A stretch of DNA of 64,000 nucleotides from positions 1 to 64,000 of the forward strand of contig CASFCH010000065.1 in the NCBI GenBank assembly GCA_949293315.1. Reading direction: 5' to 3'. Below the pieces are notes generated by a model. It saw only the letters and a list, made by a program, of their open reading frames with translations, was not told the DNA's origin and did no database searches. This stretch comes from an uncultured Oscillospiraceae bacterium (GTDB lineage: Bacteria > Bacillota > Clostridia > Oscillospirales > Acutalibacteraceae). This document shows, in pieces, positions 10,245 through 53,793 of this stretch. How positions within the stretch are numbered: the first letter of the stretch is position 1; each line of letters starts with the position of its first letter. The translations under genes were made by a program, and so were the position numbers.

Positions 10245-10586
10245 ATGACGCTATATTTAGACGCAAGAACAAACTGCTCTGACCTGATGGTTGACTTTAT
10301 CGAAGTTCAGCTATCAAACGGAGAGGTCGTATCTCTCAACTGGGATGAAAGCGGAATTGACCGTGATAATGCCGGATTTAGTGCCCGATATAAGGGACTC
10401 TACTTCGATGAAGAGTACGCCGATGGACGGTTAGATGATCTTCGGGAAATGAAGATTCAGACGGTTCAGGTATATACGGAGCTGGGTGTTCCCGTAACAT
10501 TCCAAATTGACGAGATGCTTTTTGTGGATGCAGAAGAAGAGCTTCGGTTCAAATCACCTTCCTATGAAGAACTGGAGGTGGAGTGA
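10245..10586 (+). CDS. Conserved-looking protein of unknown function
   Basis: 113 residues, acidic, alternating beta strands (TLYLDARTNCSDLMVDFIEV, then NGEVVSLNWDESG), no motif I recognise. The ATG at 10,245 lies 7 nt behind GAAAGGA; ATG 10,239 is inside that site and is rejected. First gene after the leader; its stop overlaps the start of the methylase-like gene by 1 bp (TGATG), implying coupled translation. Confidence 0.7.
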   Translation: MTLYLDARTNCSDLMVDFIEVQLSNGEVVSLNWDESGIDRDNAGFSARYKGLYFDEEYADGRLDDLREMKIQTVQVYTELGVPVTFQIDEMLFVDAEEELRFKSPSYEELEVE

Positions 10587-11290
10587 TGGCGGCCAAATTA
10601 CAAAACTCAAAATCTGCGAAAGATGAGTTGCGGGAGGTGATTCGGTCTCTTGGCACAACGATGGGGCTGAACAATGCGTTCACCAAATTTCTGGAACTGA
10701 CCGCCACAGCCTTAGGTGCCGAACTGGATCCTGTCAACGCCAAAGTGCGTGATCAGCAGTATGAAGATGCTCAAAAAGGCTTGAAGCCAGATGAGCTATC
10801 TGAGTTTGCCCGGATGACAGCGCTGATGTGGCTGTCTGTACTCGAACATCAGGAAGAACCGATAGATATCCTTGGAGATATTTATCACAGTCTGCGCCTC
10901 AATAATGAATGGAACGGACAGTTTTTTACTCCGGATGATGTTGCGAGGATGATGGCTATGATCGTTAATCCTGTTTTGGAACAGGGTGATTCCCAAGACT
11001 ATCTGACACTCAATGAACCGACCTGCGGTTCCGGTACGATGGTCATTGCGAGCATTTGGGCAATGAAGAAACACGCCTTCGATTATCGGAATAAAGCCTT
11101 CTTTGTGGCGCAGGACATTGATATCCGCTGTGTGTGGATGGCATATATCCAGCTGACTCTATATCAGATTCCGGCTGTAGTCATCCATAGCAACACACTG
11201 ACGATGGAAGAATGGTCATACTGGTATACGCCATATGCCGCGCCTTTCCTCCTGAAACAGCAAGGTGATGAGATGGAGGTGGCAGGATGA
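10586..11290 (+). CDS. N6-DNA-methylase-like protein lacking the catalytic NPPF/Y motif
   Basis: 234 residues. The helical N-terminus and the segment NGQFFTPDDVARMM, then EPTCGSGTMV (SAM motif I, ~143-152) and AQDIDIRCVWMAYIQLTLY are those of HsdM-like adenine methylases. Where the catalytic NPPF/Y should follow, the protein reads EEWSYWYTPYAAPF and then ends. It may bind SAM and DNA without methylating, or represent a divergent catalytic form. ATG 10,586 overlaps the previous stop; its end overlaps the next gene by 4 bp. Confidence 0.75.
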   Translation: MAAKLQNSKSAKDELREVIRSLGTTMGLNNAFTKFLELTATALGAELDPVNAKVRDQQYEDAQKGLKPDELSEFARMTALMWLSVLEHQEEPIDILGDIYHSLRLNNEWNGQFFTPDDVARMMAMIVNPVLEQGDSQDYLTLNEPTCGSGTMVIASIWAMKKHAFDYRNKAFFVAQDIDIRCVWMAYIQLTLYQIPAVVIHSNTLTMEEWSYWYTPYAAPFLLKQQGDEMEVAG

Positions 11291-12592: not shown

Positions 12593-12766
12593 ATGGAGAA
12601 AATCGTCATTGTTGTAGAAAAAGGTATGGTGCAGAGTGTTTACGGCACTCACCCATACCAAACTGACATTGAGATACTTGATCTCGACTGTACGGATCCT
12701 GAATTTGAGCATATTTTACGGGATCGTCTGCAGGAAGTGGAGCAAGTACTCTGCAAAATTTATTGA
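12593..12766 (+). CDS. Small acidic protein of unknown function
   Basis: 57 residues (MEKIVIVVEKGMVQSVYGTH, acidic C-terminal helix). ATG at 12,593 behind GGGAGGTG; a longer frame overlaps the PP-loop gene without a ribosome site. It resembles short beta-alpha proteins common in Firmicutes elements. Followed 14 bp later by the ligase gene. Confidence 0.65.
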   Translation: MEKIVIVVEKGMVQSVYGTHPYQTDIEILDLDCTDPEFEHILRDRLQEVEQVLCKIY

Positions 12767-12780
12767 AAGGAGTTTGCGCT

Positions 12781-14757
12781 ATGAGTGCGAATAAGTACAA
12801 AACCAATCATGAGCGAATGCTTGAACTGATTGAAAAATTGAATGAAGCGGATATCGCTTACTACCGGGATGACAACCCTATAATGAGCGACCGTGATTAT
12901 GACATCCTGATGGATGAACTCAAAGGGCTGGAGAAAGATACCGGTCTGACCCTTTCCAACTCTCCGACGCAGAAAGTGTCCGGAGAGATTTTGGAGGAAC
13001 TGACGCCGGTCCGTCATACCCGCCCGATGCTCTCTGCGGATAAAATCAAATCCGTGGATGATTTGATTAAATTCGCAGCCGGCAGAGATGTGCTGCTGTC
13101 CTGGAAGATGGACGGTCTGACGCTGGTGCTCCGTTATGAACACGGTCAGCTGGTGCAGGCAATCACCCGGGGCCGCGAAGGTATCATCGGAGAAGATGTC
13201 ACGCATACGGTGCGTACTTTTCTTAATGTGCCTCTCTCCATACCGATACAGGAATCTTTTGAGGTGCGTGGTGAAGGCGTCATTTCGTGGAATAACTTCA
13301 GAAAGATCAATATGAGTTTGGAGGAACCCTATTCCCATCCGAGAAATTACGCTTCCGGCAGTGTGCGCAAGCTGGATGCCGGCGAGGCGAAGGACCGGCT
13401 TCTTGAGTTCTGGGCCTTTGATTTGGTCAGTGACTATTTGGAGCCGAAAAGCAAAGTCAGCCAGCAGGAGTTTCTGAAGCACAACGGCTTTTCCGTTGTT
13501 CCATATATCTACATCGAAGCAGGTACAAGCGAGGAGATGATCCGGAATGCCGTTGCGACAATGGATCCGAAACATTTTGCGTATCCTGTGGACGGCCTGA
13601 TTATGGAGTACGAGGATATTGCCTACGGAAAGAGCCTGGGTGCAACAGGACATCACGAAAACAGGCTGATTGCATTCAAGTGGGAAGATGAGTTACACGA
13701 TACCAAGTTTCTGGGTGTTGAGCTCGCTACCACAAGAACCGGTATGGTAAGCATAACAGGGATTTTGGAGCCTGTGGTGATTGACGGAACAGAAGTCAGC
13801 CGTGCGTATCTGCATAATCTGGACAACTTTGAAAAGTATGAATTCGGAATCGGAGATACGGTGAAGGTCTATAAAGCCAATATGATTATCCCTCAGATTG
13901 CTGAAAATGTGACGAAGAGCGGAACCTATACGCTGCCGAGAAAGTGCCCTTGCTGTGGTGAACCACTTACGGTAAAAACCACAAGCGGCGGAACAAGGCA
14001 GCTTTACTGTGAGAACGATCATTGCGCAGCTAAACTCGTCCAGAAATTTGCCCATTTCTGTGAGAAGACCCGTATGAATATTGAAGGGCTTTCCGCAACA
14101 ACGCTGGAAAAGTTCATCAGCAACGGGTGGATTCATAATTTTGGCGATCTGTACGAACTGGAGCAGCATCGTGAGGCAATTATCAACACGGAAGGTTTCG
14201 GCGTAAAGTCCTATGAGCGTCTGCAGGCAGCTATCGAAAAGAGCCGCCATTGCACGCTGGCAAAATTTATTGCCGGTCTTGGCATTCCAATGGTGGGAAG
14301 ACACGCTGGCCGTGATCTTGACAGATACTTCAATGGTTCCTGGGTGGCCTTTGAAAAGGCAATTCAGGATGGCTTTGATTTTACACAGCTGCCGGATTTC
14401 GGAGAAACAATGAACAACAACATTTACGAGTGGTATGCGGATACCGATGAGGCAAAGCTTTGGCGTCCGCTGCTCGAAAAAATTGATTTTATTAAGGAGA
14501 ATCACGATATGAATATCAATGCAAATAACCCTTTTAATGGGAAAACAGTGGTCGCAACCGGAAAGCTTGAAAAGTATACCCGTGAAGGTATCCAGATGAA
14601 ATTGCTGGAGCTGGGGGCACATCCCACAAATTCGGTTACAAAGAAAACGGATTATCTGATCGTTGGCGAAAAAGCTGGCAGCAAGCTTGCAAAAGCACAG
14701 CAGCTGGGTGTGAAGACGCTGACAGAGCAGGAATTCGAGGAAATGATTGCCGAATAA
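12781..14757 (+). CDS. ligA: NAD-dependent DNA ligase
   Basis: 658 residues, full length for LigA. In order: domain Ia (YYRDDNPIMSDRDYDIL), nucleotidyl-transferase with adenylated Lys109 in SWKMDGLT, OB fold, four-Cys zinc finger (CPCCGEPL to CENDHC), HhH repeats and a C-terminal BRCT domain (NPFNGKTVVATGKLEKYT). It seals nicks in duplex DNA using NAD+. Chosen start ATG 12,781 behind GAAAGGAG. The host must have its own ligA, so this is an element-encoded second copy, perhaps for circle formation, conjugative replication or repair after modification. Confidence 0.95.
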   Translation: MSANKYKTNHERMLELIEKLNEADIAYYRDDNPIMSDRDYDILMDELKGLEKDTGLTLSNSPTQKVSGEILEELTPVRHTRPMLSADKIKSVDDLIKFAAGRDVLLSWKMDGLTLVLRYEHGQLVQAITRGREGIIGEDVTHTVRTFLNVPLSIPIQESFEVRGEGVISWNNFRKINMSLEEPYSHPRNYASGSVRKLDAGEAKDRLLEFWAFDLVSDYLEPKSKVSQQEFLKHNGFSVVPYIYIEAGTSEEMIRNAVATMDPKHFAYPVDGLIMEYEDIAYGKSLGATGHHENRLIAFKWEDELHDTKFLGVELATTRTGMVSITGILEPVVIDGTEVSRAYLHNLDNFEKYEFGIGDTVKVYKANMIIPQIAENVTKSGTYTLPRKCPCCGEPLTVKTTSGGTRQLYCENDHCAAKLVQKFAHFCEKTRMNIEGLSATTLEKFISNGWIHNFGDLYELEQHREAIINTEGFGVKSYERLQAAIEKSRHCTLAKFIAGLGIPMVGRHAGRDLDRYFNGSWVAFEKAIQDGFDFTQLPDFGETMNNNIYEWYADTDEAKLWRPLLEKIDFIKENHDMNINANNPFNGKTVVATGKLEKYTREGIQMKLLELGAHPTNSVTKKTDYLIVGEKAGSKLAKAQQLGVKTLTEQEFEEMIAE

Positions 14758-34458: not shown

Positions 34459-35034
34459 ATGAAAAGTATCGCTGAACAGAATAATGGCTTTATCAGAACA
34501 GCTGATGTGGAAGCAGCAGGAATCAGCAGACCGATGTTGCGTAAATATACCGAGGCAGGCAATCTTGAGAAGATTCGTAAAGGATTATACATTATGACGG
34601 ATGAGCTTGGAGATGAATTTGCATTGCTTCAGGCAAGGAGTACAAAGGCTGTTTTTTCCTACGGAACGGCGCTGTATTTGTGGGGGATGTCGGACAGAAC
34701 ACCGCATACCTACGACATAACATTGCCGCGTGGAACCAACATAAGCCGCATAAAACGCGACAATCCGAATTTACGCTGCCACTATGTTCCACTTGAGATT
34801 TATTCGTTGGGAATTACGGAAACGCGCTCTCCCCAAGGCGCCGAGGTTCGTCTTTATGACAGGGAGCGTTGTATTTGTGACCTGATTCGAGATAAGGATC
34901 AAATTGAGTTGCAGCTCTTCACCCAAGCAATCAAAGAGTATTTTAAAAATACGCCAAATAATCGAAAGCTGCTTAAATATGGCAAGCTTTTTGACATTGA
35001 AGAAAAAATTAGAACCTACATGGAGGTATTGTGA
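34459..35034 (+). CDS. abiEi: AbiEi-family antitoxin (type IV toxin-antitoxin)
   Basis: 191 residues from ATG 34,459. Winged HTH (TADVEAAGISRPMLRKYTEA) and a C-terminal domain with the family features FSYGTALYLWGMSDRTP and YDRERCICDLIRD. It represses its own operon and neutralises AbiEii. The start is doubtful: GGAGG lies at 34,424, about 30 nt upstream, and the in-frame codons before the ATG would read VTDKFLSI, a stretch similar to normal family N-termini, but no ATG/GTG/TTG lies in that frame. A non-standard start or an indel is possible. Confidence 0.88.
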   Translation: MKSIAEQNNGFIRTADVEAAGISRPMLRKYTEAGNLEKIRKGLYIMTDELGDEFALLQARSTKAVFSYGTALYLWGMSDRTPHTYDITLPRGTNISRIKRDNPNLRCHYVPLEIYSLGITETRSPQGAEVRLYDRERCICDLIRDKDQIELQLFTQAIKEYFKNTPNNRKLLKYGKLFDIEEKIRTYMEVL

Positions 35035-35873
35035 TGAAAACACCGGAGCAATTAAAGGGTAAGATCCGCAGTATAGCGGCTAAGAACGATCTTCGAGCGC
35101 AGGAAGTGTTGCAGATGTTCCTTTTTGAACGAATATTGGAACGCCTTGTGAACTCGGAGTATCGCAGCAACTTTATTTTGAAGGGCGGACTGCTGATTTC
35201 ATCAATGATAGGAATTGGTGAGCGAACAACGATGGATATGGATACGACTGTTCGAGGCATTCAGATGGAAGAAGATGAAATCGTCAAAGCCGTTAAGGAG
35301 ATTCTCGCGGTTGATGTGGATGATGGCATTCAGTTTGAATATAAGAGGATAGAGCCTATTCGCGAGGATGATGCGTATAACAATTTCCGTGTTCATTTAC
35401 AGGCGAAATACGGGAAAATCGACAGTCCGATGAAAATAGATGTTACGACCGGCGATATAATTACTCCAGCTGCAGTCCGGTATGATTTTCAGATGCTCTT
35501 TGAAGATAAGACAATCCCGGTTATGGCATATACGCTTGAAACCGTGCTGGCCGAAAAATACGAGACAATCATCCGAAGAAATATCGGTACGACCAGAGCA
35601 AGAGATTTTTATGATCTGCATATTCTTTATCGTAGCCGCAAAGCTGAAGTTCGATGGGAAGTATTAAAAGAAGCTGTATTACATACGGCGAGGAAGCGAA
35701 ATTCCACGGAAGATATGCAAGCGTGGAAGGAGATCTTAACAGATATTCGAGAAGAACCACATATGTACCTGCTTTGGGACAATTACATTGCTGAAAATAA
35801 ATATGTTGGAACGCTTGAATTCAGTGAGGTTCTTGACAGCGTAGAGGAGATCGCAAAGCGTTTAACGATCTAA
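35034..35873 (+). CDS. abiEii: AbiEii-family toxin (nucleotidyltransferase)
   Basis: 279 residues. The nucleotidyltransferase core shows ILKGGLLISS (~44) followed by TTMDMDTTV, the GG/S plus DxD arrangement of AbiEii/MenT-like toxins, which transfer nucleotides to tRNA or other targets. A C-terminal helical domain contains the conserved ARDFYDLHILY. It overlaps the antitoxin stop by 1 bp; GGAGG precedes ATG 35,034. The system gives phage abortive infection and stabilises mobile elements. Confidence 0.92.
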   Translation: MKTPEQLKGKIRSIAAKNDLRAQEVLQMFLFERILERLVNSEYRSNFILKGGLLISSMIGIGERTTMDMDTTVRGIQMEEDEIVKAVKEILAVDVDDGIQFEYKRIEPIREDDAYNNFRVHLQAKYGKIDSPMKIDVTTGDIITPAAVRYDFQMLFEDKTIPVMAYTLETVLAEKYETIIRRNIGTTRARDFYDLHILYRSRKAEVRWEVLKEAVLHTARKRNSTEDMQAWKEILTDIREEPHMYLLWDNYIAENKYVGTLEFSEVLDSVEEIAKRLTI

Positions 35874-42877: not shown

Positions 42878-43942
42878 ATGGATATTTTTCATATGTCAGA
42901 TATCATTCCGCTGCTTGGATTGCCATATCCGCCATACGGCAGATCTGCATATAACATTTCCTGTCCGTGTTGCGATGATAATCCGCGAAAAAAACATCTG
43001 AATATCAATCTGAAAAAAGATGTGTTTCGATGTCCGCGCTGCGGATTCTGCGGCGGTGTATTCGATCTGTATTCTCATTACACCGGCATACCGCGTAATG
43101 AAGTTCGGGATGCTCTGATTGCGAGACTGAATGTGCAGGGCGAAGTAAAAAAACCTCGGCAGCAGATTGTTGTCAAAGAGGTTCCTGATTGTCCGCTTAC
43201 CGATGTGGACAGCAGGCATGAAACCTATCAAACATTACTCTCGAAATTATCGCTGGCCTCTGATCATCGGCAGAATTTACACGATAGAGGGTTATCTGAT
43301 GAGATGATTGAGCGGCTTGGATATAAAACAACACCGGTTATCGGAATGAAAGCGCTTGCAAAACAGTTGATGAGTGAAGGACTTTATCTTGCCGGTGTTC
43401 CTGGATTTTATAAGACGGATAGCGGCGAATGGTCGTTTATAAATGAAAAGCGTGGGATTTTGATACCGGTTCGGGAAGAACATGGCTCAATTCAAGGTCT
43501 TCAGATACGACGGGATAATGTGACTCGTCGAAAATTTCGCTGGGTTTCCAGTGTGGGAAAAAGCGACGGCTGCGGCGCTGAAGCATGGGCACATCTTGCC
43601 GGACCGCCGAGGCAAACCATTTTGCTTACGGAAGGTCCGATGAAAGCGGATGTCATTCATAATCTGACAGGTCAAACCGTAGTCGCAGTGCCGGGCGTTA
43701 GTTCTCTTACACACTTAGAGCGAATGCTTACTTATTTGCGAGAAATGGGGACAACAAAAATAATGACCGCATTTGATATGGATTTTCTCAGTAATCCAAA
43801 TGTTCAAAACGGTTATAACAACCTTGTAGGAATGCTCAGCAGCATGGGATTTGTGTATGGAACCTATCTCTGGGATCCGCAATATAAGGGACTTGATGAT
43901 TATATCTGGAAATATCTCATCCGGTCATCAATCTCACAGTAA
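42878..43942 (+). CDS. DnaG-type primase (CHC2 zinc finger plus TOPRIM)
   Basis: 354 residues. N-terminal CHC2-type zinc finger (SCPCCDDNPRKKHLNI to CPRCGFCGGVFDLY), then a TOPRIM region with LLTEGPMKADVIHNL and MTAFDMDF. Much shorter than chromosomal DnaG (no helicase-interaction domain), as in element primases that start complementary strand synthesis after transfer or during plasmid-like replication. Last gene of the unit B operon. Confidence 0.88.
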   Translation: MDIFHMSDIIPLLGLPYPPYGRSAYNISCPCCDDNPRKKHLNINLKKDVFRCPRCGFCGGVFDLYSHYTGIPRNEVRDALIARLNVQGEVKKPRQQIVVKEVPDCPLTDVDSRHETYQTLLSKLSLASDHRQNLHDRGLSDEMIERLGYKTTPVIGMKALAKQLMSEGLYLAGVPGFYKTDSGEWSFINEKRGILIPVREEHGSIQGLQIRRDNVTRRKFRWVSSVGKSDGCGAEAWAHLAGPPRQTILLTEGPMKADVIHNLTGQTVVAVPGVSSLTHLERMLTYLREMGTTKIMTAFDMDFLSNPNVQNGYNNLVGMLSSMGFVYGTYLWDPQYKGLDDYIWKYLIRSSISQ

Positions 43943-44078: not shown

Positions 44079-44999
44079 ATGATTATTGCAATTGATCACG
44101 GCAATTACGCCATAAAAACCCTCAACCATTCTTTTGTTGCGGGACTTTCCGAGCATACAGTAAAACCGCCGATGACCGATGAAATAATGGAATACGACGG
44201 AAGATTTTGGACGCTTACCGGCAACCGACTCTCCTATATGCGCGATAAGACACAGGATGAGCGGTACTTTATTCTTACACTGTTTGCGATTGCCAAAGAA
44301 CTGGAAAGCACCGGACGGCTGTCTGCTTTTGAACCCATTGACCTTGCGGTTGGTCTTCCGCCAGAACATTACGGCATACTGAAGAACAAGTTTGCTCAGT
44401 ATTTCAAGCGGACAGGCACGGTCAATTTTGTTTACAAAGACAATCCTGTCAGCATTATTATCCGCAATGTGTGCGTTTATCCTCAGGCATATGCAGCGGT
44501 TGTACCGTATGCTGGGAAACTCCTCAGCACGCTGATGATGTTTGTTGTAGATATCGGAGGATACACTACGGATGTGTTGCTTCTCAGAAATGGCAAACCG
44601 GATTTACAGTTCTGCCGCAGCCTGGAGCTGGGCGTCATCACAATGAATAATGATATCATTCGCAGAGTTGGTGCTTTGCACGATATGAAGATCGAGGACG
44701 AGCATATCAGTGCTGTGCTGCGTGGTAAAGAAACATTTTTGCCGGAGGATGTGATACAAACAATTACGAAAGCTACAGAGACACATACCAGAGACATCCT
44801 GCATAAGCTTCGCGAGTTGCAGGTAGATCTAAGAGCGAATCCGGCAATGTTTATCGGAGGCGGTTCTATTCTTTTTGAAGATTATATCAAGGCGTCTAAC
44901 CTTGTTAGCAAAGCGGATTTCATTGAAGATCCCAAAGCGAATGCCATAGGATATCAGATGCTTGCCTCCAAACAGTTAGGTTATCGCCCGACAGCATAA
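44079..44999 (+). CDS. parM: ParM/StbA-like actin-family partition ATPase
   Basis: 306 residues with actin-fold motifs: phosphate 1 IAIDHGNYAIKT (residues 3-14), phosphate 2 FVVDIGGYTTDVLLL (~residue 160) and adenosine motif MFIGGGSILF (~262). ParM-type proteins form filaments that push apart plasmid copies. It is followed 16 bp later by a ParR-like gene, giving a type II partition operon. GGAGG precedes the ATG. Partition genes are expected on plasmids and point to a maintained circular form of this integrated element. Confidence 0.85.
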   Translation: MIIAIDHGNYAIKTLNHSFVAGLSEHTVKPPMTDEIMEYDGRFWTLTGNRLSYMRDKTQDERYFILTLFAIAKELESTGRLSAFEPIDLAVGLPPEHYGILKNKFAQYFKRTGTVNFVYKDNPVSIIIRNVCVYPQAYAAVVPYAGKLLSTLMMFVVDIGGYTTDVLLLRNGKPDLQFCRSLELGVITMNNDIIRRVGALHDMKIEDEHISAVLRGKETFLPEDVIQTITKATETHTRDILHKLRELQVDLRANPAMFIGGGSILFEDYIKASNLVSKADFIEDPKANAIGYQMLASKQLGYRPTA

Positions 45000-46195: not shown

Positions 46196-46606
46196 GTGTC
46201 GAAGGACACGGATCGGGATGAACTGCGTGCAAGATTCACTGTCTACATATCGCAGGTTATCATCCACGCAAAACTGGATTATATCCGACAGCTTAAACGA
46301 AAGGCGCAGGAAACCTATCTGGAGGATTTGGAAATAGAACCTTCTATAGATTTTGAAGAGCAGTATGTGCAAGCATACAGCAACAGGCAGTCCTTTGAGT
46401 TTGAGGAAGAGAAGCTGGCCAACGCTTTTTCATCTCTCCCATTGATGCGGCAGAGAGTGCTGGAAATGCTCTTTATCGAAGAATTGACCGCTATCGAGAT
46501 CGCACAGAAAATGAACTGTTCCGTTAAGTATGTGTATGACCAAAAATATTTGGCTCTGCAGAAGCTTCGGAAAAGTTTGGGAGGTGAAACAGATGACCAA
46601 AAGTGA
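46196..46606 (+). CDS. Sigma-70-like regulator (Tn916 Orf7 type)
   Basis: 136 residues, GTG start behind GAAGGGGG. The C-terminal half has a sigma region 4-like HTH (LPLMRQRVLEMLFIEELTAI, then MNCSVKYVYDQKYLALQKLR). Similar proteins lie upstream of the integrase in Tn916-family elements. It overlaps the following small gene by 14 bp. Expected to influence excision or transfer genes. Confidence 0.8.
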   Translation: MSKDTDRDELRARFTVYISQVIIHAKLDYIRQLKRKAQETYLEDLEIEPSIDFEEQYVQAYSNRQSFEFEEEKLANAFSSLPLMRQRVLEMLFIEELTAIEIAQKMNCSVKYVYDQKYLALQKLRKSLGGETDDQK

Positions 46607-46784
46607 GTTTGCTGAAATTCTGACTCGTGCAACAGAGGGCGACCACGCAGCGCTGGATAAAATCTTTGAGCTTTATATGCCGCTCATTGATAAACACAGC
46701 GTTGTAGGCGGCAGGTTTGACGAAGACTGCAAGCAATACATTATGCTTCAGGTAGCACTGCAGATCGCTCGCTTCAAGATTTAA
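46593..46784 (+). CDS. Conjugative-transposon-type HTH protein (Tn916 Orf8 type)
   Basis: 63 residues: FAEILTRATEGDHAALDKIF, ELYMPLIDKHS and a C-terminal helix. This is the small helix-turn-helix protein that pairs with the sigma-like gene in Tn916 relatives. GGAGGTG precedes ATG 46,593, inside the end of the previous gene. Confidence 0.8.
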   Translation: MTKSEFAEILTRATEGDHAALDKIFELYMPLIDKHSVVGGRFDEDCKQYIMLQVALQIARFKI

Positions 46785-47213: not shown

Positions 47214-47474
47214 ATGGGCACGAACATTAACCGCAAAAGTTTGAATGAAATGCAACAGGTAGACATTCGGACTGTAGATAAATCGGCATTGATTGATCTA
47301 AATAGCGTAAAAATTGACGAATCGCTTCCCATACCGGAGAGAGTTGCTTCATTTGTCAGTCAAATCGGAAACCCCTATTGCTTCCGGGTAGGCGATGTGG
47401 CTGTAAAAGTGGTATATAAGACGGACGGCCCCACATTTCAACAAAATATGGAGGAAATTTTACGCACGATTTGA
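47214..47474 (+). CDS. DUF6870-like protein
   Basis: 86 residues (RKSLNEMQQVDIRTVDKSAL, then RVASFVSQIGNPYCFRVGDV). The pattern fits the DUF6870 family of small proteins found just before serine recombinases in Clostridia elements; function unknown, perhaps connected with recombination control. AAAGGAGTG precedes the ATG. Confidence 0.7.
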   Translation: MGTNINRKSLNEMQQVDIRTVDKSALIDLNSVKIDESLPIPERVASFVSQIGNPYCFRVGDVAVKVVYKTDGPTFQQNMEEILRTI

Positions 47475-47613: not shown

Positions 47614-49266
47614 ATGATCAATCAGAAGGTGCAGCAGTATAATGCTGCTATTTATCTGAGACTATCCAAAGAGGATATGGACTCTGCTCAAAAAGCGGAG
47701 AGCAATAGCATTGTAAATCAAAAACAGCTTATTTTGGGCTTTTTACAGGATAAGCCTGATATTAAGGTTGTATCTATAAGAATAGACGATGGATATACTG
47801 GGACGAATTTTGATCGCCCACAGTTTCAGCTGATGATGGATGACATCAAGGCTGGGCTCATTAACTGTGTGGTGGTCAAGGATTTGTCCCGTTTTGGGCG
47901 TGAGTACATTAACGCCGGAAAGTATATTGATCGTCTATTTCTTTATAATGGCATAAGGCTGATTGCGATCAATGATGGGATTGATACCATCACAAGGACG
48001 CAGTCTGACGAACTGAATATTACCCTGAAGAATTTAATCAATGACAGCTACTGCCGTGATATGTCAATTAAAGTGCGCAGCCATCTACAGGTCAAAAGGA
48101 AGAATGGCGAATATATCGGTGCCTTTACCCCATTCGGCTATCGTAAAGCAGAAAATGATCACAATCAGCTGGAGATTGACGATTATGCTGCATCTGTCGT
48201 AGAGGATATATTCCGATGGAAATTGGAAGGCATGAGTCAGGATGGCATTGCAAAAAGGCTGACGGCAGATGGCGTTCTTTCTCCGATGGAATATAAGAAG
48301 AGCCAGGGTGAGCGGTTCAAAACCGGTTTTGAGACTGGAAAGCAGACACAGTGGACATCGGTTGCTGTTCGCAGGATATTGACGAATCCCGTGTATATCG
48401 GCACCTTGATCCAAGGAATCCGTACAAAACCAAATTATAAAATCAATACGGTTATTGTGAATGATGAGGACAAATGGGTTAAGGTTGAGAATGCCCACAA
48501 ACCGATTGTATCAGAGCGGATTTTTAATCTTGTGCAAAGACTTTTGCTGCTGGACACACGAACTTCACCCAAGGAAAAGGTTGTGCATCCATTGGCCGGG
48601 CTGGTTATTTGCGGAGACTGTAAAGGTCCGATGGTTAAGACATCGACCAGTTCTGGTGGCAAAAAGTATTGCTACTATATTTGTGATACTAACAAAAAGC
48701 ACAAAGGCTGTACCAGCAGTCATAGAATTTCCGAAAGTGATTTGGAGCAAACTGTCTTGATTCTGCTCAGAGAGCATATCCGTATGGTGTGTGAGTTGGA
48801 TTCCTGCTTAGAAGTAATCCGAAAGGTTCCGTTCCAAAAGATAAAGCTAAAGAAAGTTCAGGAACGGCAATTGAAGATAGAGGAAGAATTGGAACGGTAT
48901 CGCAGGCTTAAACTTTCGCTCTATGAGGATATGAAAGATGGTCTTATCTCGAAAGAGGACTATGTGGATATCAAAGCGCAGTATGATGAGCGTATTGCCT
49001 CTCAGAAACAGGCATATGATCAGGCGCAAAAGGAAATTGATATGTACTTGGACGACAACTCCAAACCGCATCAGTGGATACAGGAGTTTATGGAGCATCG
49101 CAATATAACAGAACTTACGCGGATGGTCGCTGTTGAATGTATTGATGAAATTGCAATCTATGAGGATCGAAAGATCGAGGTTTCATTCACTCATTGGCAA
49201 GACTACTCGGCATTATCTGAACAAGTGCGAGAGTATTATCAGGAAAATCATAAGGAGGTTGTATAA
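47614..49266 (+). CDS. Large serine recombinase 1
   Basis: 550 residues. Resolvase catalytic domain with YLRLSKED (Ser18) and VVKDLSRFGREYI, a Recombinase domain (GAFTPFGYRKAEND onward), a zinc ribbon (VICGDCKGPM to HKGC) and a coiled-coil insert (~395-470). First of three consecutive integrase-like genes; its TAA shares a base with the next ATG. An extended -10 (TGCTACAAT, ~47,528-47,536) and AAAGGAGTG precede it. Any of the three could perform integration in spoVAC; triplets of such recombinases are known from some streptococcal integrative elements. Confidence 0.95.
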   Translation: MINQKVQQYNAAIYLRLSKEDMDSAQKAESNSIVNQKQLILGFLQDKPDIKVVSIRIDDGYTGTNFDRPQFQLMMDDIKAGLINCVVVKDLSRFGREYINAGKYIDRLFLYNGIRLIAINDGIDTITRTQSDELNITLKNLINDSYCRDMSIKVRSHLQVKRKNGEYIGAFTPFGYRKAENDHNQLEIDDYAASVVEDIFRWKLEGMSQDGIAKRLTADGVLSPMEYKKSQGERFKTGFETGKQTQWTSVAVRRILTNPVYIGTLIQGIRTKPNYKINTVIVNDEDKWVKVENAHKPIVSERIFNLVQRLLLLDTRTSPKEKVVHPLAGLVICGDCKGPMVKTSTSSGGKKYCYYICDTNKKHKGCTSSHRISESDLEQTVLILLREHIRMVCELDSCLEVIRKVPFQKIKLKKVQERQLKIEEELERYRRLKLSLYEDMKDGLISKEDYVDIKAQYDERIASQKQAYDQAQKEIDMYLDDNSKPHQWIQEFMEHRNITELTRMVAVECIDEIAIYEDRKIEVSFTHWQDYSALSEQVREYYQENHKEVV

Positions 49267-50966
49267 TGGCACGAAAAAGCAGAAAAGCAGTTAATCAAGT
49301 AATATTGCCAGCAGCCCCTTCTGAAAAAATATATCGCGCCGGCCTTTATGCTCGAATCTCAGTAGAAACAGAGAGAAAGCGCGAGGCAGATACGATTGGC
49401 AACCAAATTCAACTGTTGAAGGACTTTGCCAGCGAAAATTTAGATATTGATGTCGCAGACATTTATGTGGACGATGATATTTCGGGTACAGACTTTGTCC
49501 GTCCAGAGTTTTCAAGAATGATGAATGATATTCGAGATGGAAAGATCGACTGCGTGATAGTTAAGGACCTTTCCAGGCTTGGGCGAAACCTGATTGAAAC
49601 CGGCGAATATATTGAAATGGTGTTCCCTGTCCTTGGCGTTCGCTTTATTGCAATTACAGACAGATTCGATTCAAAGACGATGCAGGTCGATATCGGCGTA
49701 CAGATCAAGAATATGACGAATGAAATGTATGCAAAAGACGCCTCTCAAAAAATCTGTTCCGTAATGCGATCAATTCAAGAGCAAGGAAAATTTGCAGGCA
49801 GCAGGGCACCCTATGGTTATGTAAGAGATCCACGGGATAAGCATATGCTGTTAGCCGATGATGAAACCGCACCGATTGTCAGGGAAATGTTTGAAATGGT
49901 TGCAGATGGCGCTACCTTGCATTATGTTGCGACCACTTTGAATGAGCAAGGTGTTGCTTCGCCAGGCCGGCGTTTATACGAAACCGGCATTTCAAAAAAA
50001 GATAAGTATAAGAATTCCATATGGTATATGCAGACCGTTCGCAGGATCTTACAGGATAGAATATATCTTGGCTGGATGGTTAGCGGCAAGTATGCTTCTG
50101 AATTCTATATTACCGGTCAAAAAGGAAGTAAAGCCGTACCTCCGGAAGAATGGATTATCACAAAAGGCACTCACGAGCCTATTGTGACAGAGGAATTATT
50201 TAATCGGGTCCAGGAGTATTTTGCTAAAAATAAGGAAGAGCACGCCCTGGCTACGAAGTACGATCACAAAAGTAAGCGTGAGAGTATGTTCCGGGGGCAT
50301 TTGTTCTGTGGTGAATGCGGAAAAGCTATGCACATCCGTCGAAAAGTAAATCACGGGAGAGAAAGTTACTGGTATTGCTGTATGATTCACGAACACTACA
50401 ACAGCCAATATTGCAGCAAGAAGGCTGTTAAAAGTGAGCAGCTGGAATCAATGGTTCACACACTGATCCAAAATCAGATGGCTCTGTACTTAGATGCCAA
50501 AAGTATTATTGCGGAGCTCAACAAGAAAAATACCAGCCAAGTCCGCTATAAAGTGTACAAAGAACAGATTAACAACCTGCAGCGGCAGATTGACCGCTAT
50601 ATGGAACTGAAAGCGGCTTTATACGAAGATTATGCGGAAGGCACGATTACCGCAGAAGACTATGTGGCTATGGGACAAGAATATGCACAAAAAGCTGATG
50701 AATTGCGGATTTTCCTATCGGAAATAAAAAAAGAATCCCGCAAATATGATCCGGAATATATGGGTGGTGAACATTGGGCAAAGCTTGTTACCGACTTTAA
50801 GGATCAAAAAACTTTGGATAGAAAGATGGTCGAAGCATTTGTAAACAAGCTGACGCTCTATAACGATGGCCGAGCGGAAATTGAATTCAATTTCCGTGAT
50901 GAATTGGAAGAAGTTTTGCTTTGGGCAGCAATGCGAAAAAAGGAGGTGAACAAATATGCCGGATAA
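49266..50966 (+). CDS. Large serine recombinase 2
   Basis: 566 residues. A 22-residue N-terminal extension precedes the catalytic domain (AGLYARISVETE, Ser32; VVKDLSRLGRNLI), then Recombinase domain (GSRAPYGYVRDP), zinc ribbon (LFCGECGKAM to YCSKK) and coiled coil. The gene overlaps the third recombinase by 11 bp, so translation of all three is coupled. Sequence is clearly diverged from recombinases 1 and 3, arguing for different DNA-binding specificities or a division of labour rather than a recent duplication. Confidence 0.95.
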   Translation: MARKSRKAVNQVILPAAPSEKIYRAGLYARISVETERKREADTIGNQIQLLKDFASENLDIDVADIYVDDDISGTDFVRPEFSRMMNDIRDGKIDCVIVKDLSRLGRNLIETGEYIEMVFPVLGVRFIAITDRFDSKTMQVDIGVQIKNMTNEMYAKDASQKICSVMRSIQEQGKFAGSRAPYGYVRDPRDKHMLLADDETAPIVREMFEMVADGATLHYVATTLNEQGVASPGRRLYETGISKKDKYKNSIWYMQTVRRILQDRIYLGWMVSGKYASEFYITGQKGSKAVPPEEWIITKGTHEPIVTEELFNRVQEYFAKNKEEHALATKYDHKSKRESMFRGHLFCGECGKAMHIRRKVNHGRESYWYCCMIHEHYNSQYCSKKAVKSEQLESMVHTLIQNQMALYLDAKSIIAELNKKNTSQVRYKVYKEQINNLQRQIDRYMELKAALYEDYAEGTITAEDYVAMGQEYAQKADELRIFLSEIKKESRKYDPEYMGGEHWAKLVTDFKDQKTLDRKMVEAFVNKLTLYNDGRAEIEFNFRDELEEVLLWAAMRKKEVNKYAG

Positions 50967-52563
50967 GACGCTCGCATTCTATATCCGTCTGTCAATGGAA
51001 GACGGAGACCTAAAAGGTTCGGCGGATAAAAAAGAAAGTAATAGTATTACCAACCAAAGAAAATTGTTGATAAACTATTATGAGAGCCATCCGGATCTAA
51101 AGAAATACCAGATTATTGAGTTTTGTGATGATGGTTTCAGCGGCACAAACTTTGATCGCCCGCAATTCACGAGAATGATTGAAATGCTGCGTAACCGAGA
51201 AATTGATGCGGTTATGGTAAAAGACCTTTCACGATTTGGACGAGACCATTTAGAGGTCGGCGGGTACTTGGAATTATTGTTTCCCCTATTCGGAACACGC
51301 TTTATTTCCGTCAATGATAATTTCGATACGAACGATTATGTCGGGACAACAGGCGGTCTGGAACTGGCAATCCGAAATCTCGTCAATGGAATGTATAGTA
51401 AGGATCTTTCGCTGAAAATACGAAGTGCAAATCAGGCTCGGAGAAAGCAGGGATTTTATCATTCCTGCGGTCACGCCTTTTATGGCTATCAGCTTGATCC
51501 TAAAGATAAGCGCAAACTTATTGTGGACGAGAATGTCCGTGAGGTCGTAGTCAAAATATTTGACTTGTGTATTGAAGGACGCAGCACTAAAGAGATTGCG
51601 CAATATCTGAATGACGAAAAGATTCTATCGCCGCGACAGTACAAGCTACAAAATGGAATGTTTTATAACGGCAGAGTGGTTGATAATGAGAGTATTTGGC
51701 TGGCTTCCACGATCCGAAAAATGCTCAATGATGGAAGATATACAGGCAAGATGATTTCTAACACACGAGAGATGGTAGGAATACGAAGCAATAACAGCCG
51801 TGTGCTTCCGCGTGAACAGTGGATAGTTGTAGAAAACACCCACGAGGCCATCATTTCAGAGGAAAAGTTTCAAGCCGCTGCCGCTTCGTTGGCTTCTCGA
51901 ATCAAAACAGTCAATATGAATACTTCCGGTAACAGGGCCGGTAATTTATTTGTTTGCGGTTATTGTGGAAGGAAGCTACAGAAAGCACCTGCGATTGATA
52001 CACACCTGTTTTGTTTGAAGGCATCCAGTCAAAACCAAGCGGAATGTGCCGCTATCCACGAAAGTCTGGAAGTACTCCAGGACAAGACGCTGAGTGTTGT
52101 GAAGGCAATCGCACAAATTCTGCTGGATAAGTCCAAGTTTGTGAAAAAATATGATGTCACAGAACAGGCGCAGCTTGAAAGACTGATCGCAGATATGGAA
52201 CGAAGGCGCAGGCAAATTGCGAATGGAAAAAGCTCTCTATATGAGGAGTATCGGAATGGGCATATAAGCAGAGAACGCTTCATCAAAATTCAGTCTGATA
52301 ACAAAGCTGAAGACGAAAGGCTTCAACAGAAGATCGCAGAAAAGAATGTGGTATTAAATGAGTGTATTCAAAAACAAAAAGCTCTTGCCCTCGCAGGGCG
52401 GGATGCGGAACAGATTCAGGCTTTGACTGAGTATCGCCCGGAGGTTATAAGCCGACTGATAGATAAAGTACGAGTATTTGAAGGTGGGCGAATTGAGATT
52501 GGACTAAAAAGCAAGTATCTGACAGATATAATAGGAGAATGTATTCCGGAGCTTGCTTCGTAA
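50956..52563 (+). CDS. Large serine recombinase 3
   Basis: 535 residues. Catalytic FYIRLSMED (Ser13), VMVKDLSRFGRDH, Recombinase domain (GHAFYGYQLDPKDK), zinc ribbon (FVCGYCGRKL; second Cys pair less regular: LFCLKASSQNQAEC) and long coiled coil. ATG at 50,956 lies inside the end of gene 2 with AAAGGAGG upstream. It is the last gene of the element; a terminator and then the spoVAC fragment follow within 70 bp, so attR is next to it. Confidence 0.95.
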   Translation: MPDKTLAFYIRLSMEDGDLKGSADKKESNSITNQRKLLINYYESHPDLKKYQIIEFCDDGFSGTNFDRPQFTRMIEMLRNREIDAVMVKDLSRFGRDHLEVGGYLELLFPLFGTRFISVNDNFDTNDYVGTTGGLELAIRNLVNGMYSKDLSLKIRSANQARRKQGFYHSCGHAFYGYQLDPKDKRKLIVDENVREVVVKIFDLCIEGRSTKEIAQYLNDEKILSPRQYKLQNGMFYNGRVVDNESIWLASTIRKMLNDGRYTGKMISNTREMVGIRSNNSRVLPREQWIVVENTHEAIISEEKFQAAAASLASRIKTVNMNTSGNRAGNLFVCGYCGRKLQKAPAIDTHLFCLKASSQNQAECAAIHESLEVLQDKTLSVVKAIAQILLDKSKFVKKYDVTEQAQLERLIADMERRRRQIANGKSSLYEEYRNGHISRERFIKIQSDNKAEDERLQQKIAEKNVVLNECIQKQKALALAGRDAEQIQALTEYRPEVISRLIDKVRVFEGGRIEIGLKSKYLTDIIGECIPELAS

Positions 52564-52577
52564 TATAGAAAAAAGAA

Positions 52578-52616
52578 TTCCTGCCGAAGTTCGACAGGAA
52601 AATAAAAAAATCTTTT
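52578..52616 (+). terminator. Terminator at the right end of the element
   Basis: Near-perfect palindrome TTCCTGCCGAA / TTCGACAGGAA followed by A/T-rich sequence ending in TCTTTT. Confidence 0.7.
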
Positions 52617-52645
52617 AGGGTTTACTTGACACAAGCAGAGGGCAG
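52617..52645. other. Probable attR junction (element/chromosome)
   Basis: Base composition changes from AT-rich to GC-rich here, and the frame of the spoVAC C-terminus becomes recognisable from about 52,632 (AEGRIMGTGV). The exact crossover dinucleotide cannot be fixed without attL or an empty-site sequence. Confidence 0.6.
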
Positions 52646-52757
52646 GATCATGGGCACCGGCGTGCAGATGTTCACCATTGCCGGACCCGTGATCGTCTAC
52701 GGTACGGCTGCGGCGGTGCTCTACGGCCTGATCATCTATCTGTTCAATCTGTATTAA
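52632..52757 (+). pseudogene. spoVAC: 3' fragment of spoVAC, cut off by the element
   Basis: About 41 codons are conserved SpoVAC C-terminus: EGRIMGTGVQMFTIAGPVIV, then YGTAAAVLYG and a hydrophobic end. SpoVAC is a membrane channel component for dipicolinic acid uptake in the forespore and is needed for normal spores. The rest of the gene must lie at the far left end of the element, outside the window. The reading frame stays open back to 52,569 but no start codon with ribosome site makes sense. SpoVAD follows 14 bp later, as in normal spoVA operons. Unless the element is excised, the strain lacks intact SpoVAC. Confidence 0.85.
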
Positions 52758-52770
52758 AGGGGGGAGCCGT

Positions 52771-53793
52771 ATGCCGATCAGAACAGGGCGGTACGTCCTG
52801 ACGCTGCCCTCCCGTCCGGTCATCGCGGGCAGCGCCGCCGTAGTGGGCAAAAAGGAGGGCGAGGGCCCGCTGGGGCAGGAATTTGACCATATTTTTACCG
52901 ATACCACGATGGGGGAGCCCTCGTGGGAAAAGGCGGAGAGCGCCCTCGTGCGCGAGGCGGTCATCCGTGCGCTGGCAAAGGCGTCGCTCTCCTCCGCGGA
53001 GATCGACGTGATCTTTTCCGGCGACCTATTAAACCAGTGCATCGCCACCACCTTCGGCCTGCGGGAACTGGATATTCCCTTTGCGGGGCTGTACGGCGCA
53101 TGCTCCACCATGGCGCTCTCCCTGGCGATGGCGGCCGTGTTTACGGACAGCGGCGCGGCCAATAACGCCATCGCGTCCACGTCGTCACACTTCGCCTCCG
53201 CGGAAAAGCAGTTCCGCTATCCGCTTGAATACGGCGGCCAGCGTCCGCCCTCCGCACAGTGGACGGCCACGGCGGCCGGTGCGGCGGTGGTGAGCAAATC
53301 GGGCGGCGGCCCGCGGATTGAGCAGGTGCTCTTTGGCCGGATCCAGGATCTCGGGATCAAGGACGCCAACAACATGGGCGCAGCCATGGCGCCCGCAGCC
53401 TGCGCCACGATCGCGGACTTTTTACGCGATACCAATACAAAACCGACGGATTATGATATGATCCTCACCGGCGACCTCGGAGCCGTAGGTTCCAAACTGC
53501 TGATCGAACTGATGCAGAAGCAGGAGGGGATTGATATCTCTCCGGTGCATGCGGACTGCGGCCTGATGCTCTACTCGCTCGATGAGCAGGATGTCAACGC
53601 CGGCGCTTCCGGCTGCGGCTGCTCCGGCAGTGTGGTGTGCTCCTATATTATGAAACGCCTTGCCACCGGGGCGCTCAAGCGGGTGCTCTTCGCGGGGACG
53701 GGGGCGCTGATGTCCCCCACCTCCTCACGGCAGGGGGAGAGTATCCCGGGCGTGGCCCATGCGGTGCTGCTCACCTCAACGGGAAGGGAGTGA
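52771..53793 (+). CDS. spoVAD: Stage V sporulation protein AD
   Basis: 340 residues, full length. Thiolase-like fold protein that binds dipicolinic acid: features VIAGSAAVVGKKEGEGPLGQ, FAGLYGACSTMALSLAMA, STSSHFASAEKQFRYPLEYG and ASGCGCSGSVVCSYI. It acts in the forespore inner membrane complex with SpoVAC and others. AAAGGGGGG precedes the ATG. With spoVAC broken upstream, its transcription from the native forespore promoter is also separated by the element. Confidence 0.95.
   Translation: MPIRTGRYVLTLPSRPVIAGSAAVVGKKEGEGPLGQEFDHIFTDTTMGEPSWEKAESALVREAVIRALAKASLSSAEIDVIFSGDLLNQCIATTFGLRELDIPFAGLYGACSTMALSLAMAAVFTDSGAANNAIASTSSHFASAEKQFRYPLEYGGQRPPSAQWTATAAGAAVVSKSGGGPRIEQVLFGRIQDLGIKDANNMGAAMAPAACATIADFLRDTNTKPTDYDMILTGDLGAVGSKLLIELMQKQEGIDISPVHADCGLMLYSLDEQDVNAGASGCGCSGSVVCSYIMKRLATGALKRVLFAGTGALMSPTSSRQGESIPGVAHAVLLTSTGRE

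Follow-up and report, generated by a model that had tools for sequence, protein, structure and literature searches.

The window analysed here, a 64,000-nucleotide stretch of contig C65, was found to carry three overlapping open reading frames at 47614-52563, all of which encoded large serine recombinases with both Resolvase and Recombinase domains (E 1e-18 to 1e-26), so that the element, like those of the skin type, encodes site-specific recombinases of its own. Behind the third recombinase came a terminator-like hairpin, the 3′ end of spoVAC and an intact spoVAD (Table 1), and this order of genes, already read in the original prediction, was confirmed by the open reading frames and their Pfam domains. 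The distance from the stop codon of recombinase 3 to the crossover core was 75 bp. The stretch 52629-52733 matched positions 83-117 of the SpoVAC_SpoVAEB family (PF03862, E 5.5e-6), and the spoVAC fragment was 95% identical to the C-terminus of the intact SpoVAC of a same-genus genome (G001).

Table 1. Features of the element and of the adjoining host genes in the window.
Feature	Position	Strand	Evidence
DnaG-like primase	42878..43942	+	TIGR01391 1.3e-10; DUF3854 7e-8
ParM-like actin homologue	44079..44999	+	PHROG 691 partition protein 9e-33; ALP_N 8.5e-10
Possible ParR partner, 118 aa	45016..45372	+	ParR-like by position only
Sigma-70 region 4-like regulator	46196..46606	+	Sigma70_r4 4.2e-6; PHROG sigma factor 1.7e-11
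HTH_16 regulator	46530..46784	+	PF12645 7e-13
DUF6870 protein, 86 aa, candidate recombination directionality factor	47214..47474	+	PF21757 1.1e-29
Large serine recombinase 1, 550 aa	47614..49266	+	Pfam Recombinase 2.7e-21, Resolvase 1.5e-19, Zn_ribbon_recom 3.4e-13
Large serine recombinase 2, 566 aa	49266..50966	+	Pfam Recombinase 6.6e-26, Resolvase 2.1e-21, Zn_ribbon_recom 3.8e-10
Large serine recombinase 3, 535 aa, adjoins right attachment site	50956..52563	+	Pfam Recombinase 2.8e-24, Resolvase 2.5e-19
Terminator-like hairpin 3′ of recombinase 3	52580..52598 (approx.)	+	inverted repeat CCTGCCGAAGTTCGACAGG in sequence
attR: element arm TTTACTTGACACAAGCA, core GA (52638-52639), then spoVAC	52621..52664	+	alignment with attR/attL/attB of relatives
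spoVAC 3′ fragment, 39 codons and stop	52638..52757	+	PF03862; frame checked
Intact spoVAD, host gene	52771..53793	+	PF07451, positions 3-328 of 329, E 1.5e-142

The original prediction had also placed partition genes and a primase on the element. Profile matches upheld the ParM-like protein and the DnaG-like primase, whereas the 118-aa ParR candidate, which gave no family match in Pfam, NCBIfam or PHROGs, is ParR-like by its position. No relaxase, VirB4 or VirD4 was found among the scanned proteins of window 1-47 kb, and no virion structural genes were found among the scanned window proteins, a set that covered the on-contig part of the element with only some of the first 20 kb and not every small open reading frame. 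An AbiEi/AbiEii-type toxin-antitoxin pair was located within the element (34459-35873), and farther to the left lay an N6 DNA methylase domain protein (10583-11290) and, as judged by eye, an NAD-dependent DNA ligase-like protein (12763-14757).

Since the window starts at base 1 of contig C65 and already within the element, the left end of the element lies off the contig. Neither the spoVAC 5′ half nor the left-end motif of the relatives described below was found when the whole 2.37-Mb, 97%-complete assembly was searched; the 5′ half, which had been expected on the left, was thus found in relatives and not in the assembly itself. A second intact spoVAC, which would have spoken against the idea of a developmental switch, was likewise found nowhere in this assembly. 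The other PF03862 match (C4:6768-7094) was considered as a second spoVAC and rejected, being SpoVAE-like and 36% identical to SpoVAC; a SpoVAE-like gene away from spoVAD was also observed in G001. An empty site was recovered as anticipated, in that G001 carried a whole spoVAC next to spoVAD at the corresponding position.

Both halves of spoVAC, each joined to an element end at the identical crossover, were found in two relatives, G126 and G414 (Candidatus Faecousia excrementipullorum), and the left half was found in a third, G185; all spoVAC-split genomes are draft assemblies in which the element ends fall on separate contigs, and the two both-ended relatives are metagenome-assembled, G414 being a named one. 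Two relatives of recombinase 3 in spoVAC were 96% (L078) and 52% (G126) identical to it. In G126, spoVAC was cut at the same place behind the recombinase, with spoVAD next in line, and the 5′ half, located on another contig, ran into element DNA and a stop. G414 carried a 96% identical recombinase and the same right junction, with the 5′ half entering a similar left end, again with a stop soon after the junction. The left end of G185 was that of G414 on the element side and differed in spoVAC. When attR, attL and attB were aligned, the crossover core in all spoVAC junctions was the dinucleotide GA within a Glu codon that is invariant in the motif EF[K/Q]xEG, a site also conserved in intact spoVAC; the element arms were common to the junctions, and the host arms differed. 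Joining the halves of the relatives at the core in silico gave complete SpoVAC proteins of 149 and 146 aa, so exact excision would restore the reading frame. That the element splits spoVAC was thus substantiated by both halves in two relatives and the left half in a third; the window itself holds the 3′ half, and its spoVAC appears to be split in the same manner, the split being seen directly only in the relatives. The circular form is predicted to carry the attP junction TTGACACAAGCA-GA-GGAGCGTG. Neither this junction nor the left-end motif was found in IMG/VR, which contains viral contigs only, and the single attR match there (L202) was dismissed as a chance match on a phage contig without recombinases or spoVAC.

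An insertion of this kind need not cost the host its gene if the left end of the element supplied a replacement spoVAC 3′ end, in which case the fragment at 52638 would be a spare copy. Such an arrangement does exist at the very same site in three other genomes, G034 (L018, G034:C8), G217 (L160, G217:C59) and G201 (L159, G201:C2), where an intact spoVAC was followed by one to three cassettes lacking a recombinase, each closing with the same right-end arm as the element (TTGACA..AGC[A/C]-GA), to which a spare 3′ end of spoVAC was joined. In G201 three cassettes stood in a row, and about 65 bp past the core were identical or nearly so in the four copies of the spoVAC 3′ end, after which the C-termini diverged. 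These genomes showed that the site has been used repeatedly with spoVAC kept whole. However, the left junctions of G126, G414 and G185 ran from the 5′ half directly into element DNA and held no spoVAC 3′ end, and no full-length spoVAC was present in the assembly of the window. Restoration of the gene by the left end was therefore rejected for the recombinase-bearing forms, and for the window element we consider it highly improbable.

The junctions with attL and attR established site-specific integration of the kind expected for an integrative conjugative element, and horizontal spread was evident as well. Over 1599 bp the element DNA at the right end was 94.5% identical between the window genome and G414, while the spoVAC fragments differed, which indicates movement between species. 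The left end of G414 carried weakly matching TrbC/VirB2-like (0.0018) and TrbL-like (1.6e-4) genes, which suggest a conjugative element. Site-specific insertion into a coding site that is conserved, together with horizontal spread, is shared with integrative conjugative elements that use large serine recombinases, and the putative type IV secretion genes at the left end of a relative would be in keeping with them; unlike these, the present element targets a late sporulation gene, and its conjugation machinery is putative.

Smaller elements were found in the neighbouring gene, spoVAD, both halves of which were present in six genomes of the order and the right half only in one more. The element of G381 (L161, G381:C4:108000-117000) was about 4.7 kb long and consisted of a methyl-accepting chemotaxis-like (chemoreceptor-like) gene, a DUF6870 gene and one serine recombinase, and that of G338 (L162, G338:C30) measured about 8 kb. 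The latter appeared by eye to carry host-like cargo, namely a TepA/ClpP-like gene and an alcohol dehydrogenase-like open reading frame. Neither of the two contained recognised partition or primase genes, and such genes are thus unnecessary for persistence in a forespore gene. The suggestion that the ParM/ParR pair and the primase serve to keep the excised circle found no support.

In genus g127, split spoVAD genes with both halves were found in 4 of 25 species, and in the tree of the genus they were interspersed with intact ones. The split halves contained no stops; compared with the closest congeners having an intact gene they gave dN/dS values of 0.03-0.17, and across three host species the recombinase dS (0.70-0.96) roughly tracked the spoVAD dS (0.64-0.79). 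This pattern would fit a maintained function, although the insertions may be recent; the constraint on spoVAD looks normal but does not date the insertion, and hence the selection test does not decide. The insertion shared by G428 and G421 was set aside as evidence because the two were 98.7% identical over 4.8 kb and too close to inform, and the intact spoVAD of G421 was rejected as a restored gene because it was too diverged (dS 0.33). These data bear on the possibility that the insertion is permanent and marks a lineage without DPA-filled spores, for which the target is dispensable during growth in the gut. Such a dead end would agree with the lack of an intact spoVAC in the 97%-complete assembly and with the landing of part of the family in dispensable recombinase genes of other elements. 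On the other hand, the recombinase frames were intact, the element has moved between hosts recently, and the split spoVAD genes were free of stops and constrained, even if insertion may post-date most of that divergence. We regard a permanent loss as unlikely. The alternative named in the original prediction, that the strain is simply unable to form normal spores, is on a par in likelihood with excision during sporulation.

The wider family was surveyed by searching recombinase 3 against 394 genomes of the order and reading the DNA 3′ of each recombinase; 69 loci, 29 from this search and 40 further ones that were fetched, represented the best-scoring relatives of one recombinase. In sixteen of them the sequence past the recombinase led directly into the 3′ portion of a sporulation gene, with seven in spoVAD, five in spoVT and one each in spoVAC, spoIVA, cwlD and pdaB, making six different sporulation genes in all (target identity was checked with NCBIfam for one spoVT fragment, spoIVA, cwlD and pdaB, and with Pfam for spoVAD). 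Given this sampling, and the sharing of sites among related recombinases, the 16 loci are not independent events, and no p-value is attached to the targeting of sporulation genes. At least 10 other loci led into genes for serine recombinases that seem to belong to other mobile elements (L044, L047, L049, L050, L053, L054, L056, L059, L060 and L102). The sporulation gene spo0A was present in all 19 hosts checked.

A further feature of the family was the gene for a DUF6870 protein (PF21757), which lay 90-268 bp upstream of the serine recombinase in 20/20 loci that contained it, and 140 bp before recombinase 1 in the window. This constant position makes DUF6870 the best candidate for the directionality factor. 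Its AlphaFold model (pLDDT 85) gave no significant match in the PDB, solved SPbeta recombinase-RDF entries included, and the proposed role thus rests on gene neighbourhood only; no paper on DUF6870 was found in the open-access literature.

Several known systems resemble the present one. The gin element in gerE of Bacillus cereus ATCC10987 is likewise a non-phage element with three serine recombinase genes that splits a sporulation gene restored by precise excision (PMC5595907). However, gin occupies a mother-cell gene, its girC lies far from girA and girB, GirC acts together with GirX, and its excision in sporulation has been demonstrated, whereas the spoVAC element has its three recombinase genes in one right-end operon and its excision is putative. 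The elements skin in sigK, SPbeta in spsM, vfbin in spoVFB, phi3T in kamA and yin in yabG also are serine recombinase elements inside sporulation coding sequences with intact halves (PMC6957869, PMC10747680, PMC5025042). A survey of large serine recombinases similarly reported distantly related recombinases converging on one conserved coding site, but its main text describes an enrichment of competence genes among the targets with no mention of sporulation genes (PMC10083194).

The targets of the present family also differ from those of the skin-type elements in their compartment of expression. Of the two compartments of a sporulating cell the mother cell is the one that dies, and intervening elements that split mother-cell genes are cut out of a genome with no descendants. 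Published intervening elements lie almost only in such genes, and the germ line thereby keeps the element (PMC6957869). The spoVAC element departs from this generalisation when the compartment is taken from C. difficile, where sigma-G controls spoVAC and spoVAD, sigma-F/G controls spoVT and sigma-E controls cwlD (PMC3789822). The original prediction rightly saw that excision in the forespore would cost the element its place in the germ line, and this is the central problem; reintegration would avert the loss. Two outcomes follow for a forespore target: spores of the integrated host are defective, or the element exits and later comes back.

A return would be achieved if the element left spoVAC in or just before the forespore, allowing DPA uptake, persisted in circular form in the spore, which does not divide, and reintegrated at germination. 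The repeated targeting of late sporulation genes, among them the C. difficile forespore genes spoVAC, spoVAD and spoVT, would be in line with such a cycle, as would the presence of spo0A in every host checked, the undecayed state of both halves of the split genes, the persistence of a minimal 4.7-kb spoVAD element with little besides a recombinase and DUF6870, and a recombinase dS similar to that of spoVAD, which is compatible with long co-inheritance. There being no cell division in the dormant spore, the circle could await germination without partition genes. However, undecayed halves are equally expected from recent insertions, split spoVAD genes were scattered among intact ones, and a circle in the forespore is lost if it fails to reintegrate. 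A search of the open-access literature yielded no forespore excise-and-reintegrate cycle, and forespore targets may have been described earlier in papers outside it. Developmental excision with return from spoVAC seems to us doubtful. Its extension to the family as a whole, which would live in forespore genes (spoVAC, spoVAD, spoVT), exit the chromosome in the forespore, re-enter it at germination and by its excision turn on host spore genes in the germ line, is in our estimate quite unlikely.

We instead favour, with a probability of roughly 0.6, a conjugative-type element that lands in late spore genes and disables spoVAC reversibly, its excision being tied to transfer and not to a forespore programme. 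On this view the window would contain the right-hand end of an element that is integrative and probably conjugative, and whose recombinase operon may insert it by site-specific crossover at the GA of the invariant Glu codon. Since the integrated element splits spoVAC, the host should lack SpoVAC as long as the element stays in place. Excision would occur by the reverse reaction, probably with a directionality factor for which DUF6870 is the candidate, and would restore spoVAC exactly; it is most likely linked to transfer of the element. The broad family to which it belongs lands in late sporulation genes and in the recombinase genes of other mobile elements, targets that are conserved yet dispensable for growth. 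That sigma-G forespore genes have been hit repeatedly among gut Clostridia breaks the rule that such elements sit almost exclusively in mother-cell genes. It means either that mobile elements switch off sporulation in many gut lineages, which bears on transmission between hosts, or that a hitherto unrecognised excise-and-return cycle operates; if the latter were true, the dormant, non-dividing spore would make exit safe for the element.

The element arm next to the core was shared well beyond spoVAC. Of 26 right-end junctions, 19 had TTGACA a few bases away from the core, whatever the target, as against 0.9% of random 25-nt windows. Five genomes (L040-L043 and L045) carried elements about nine codons into spoVT, and in several spoVT insertions the TTG of the TTGACA arm was in frame and could act as a new start codon. 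At one further locus (L055, G169:C4) a related element opened into a collagen-like gene with GPAGPAG repeats, possibly encoding a spore-surface protein.
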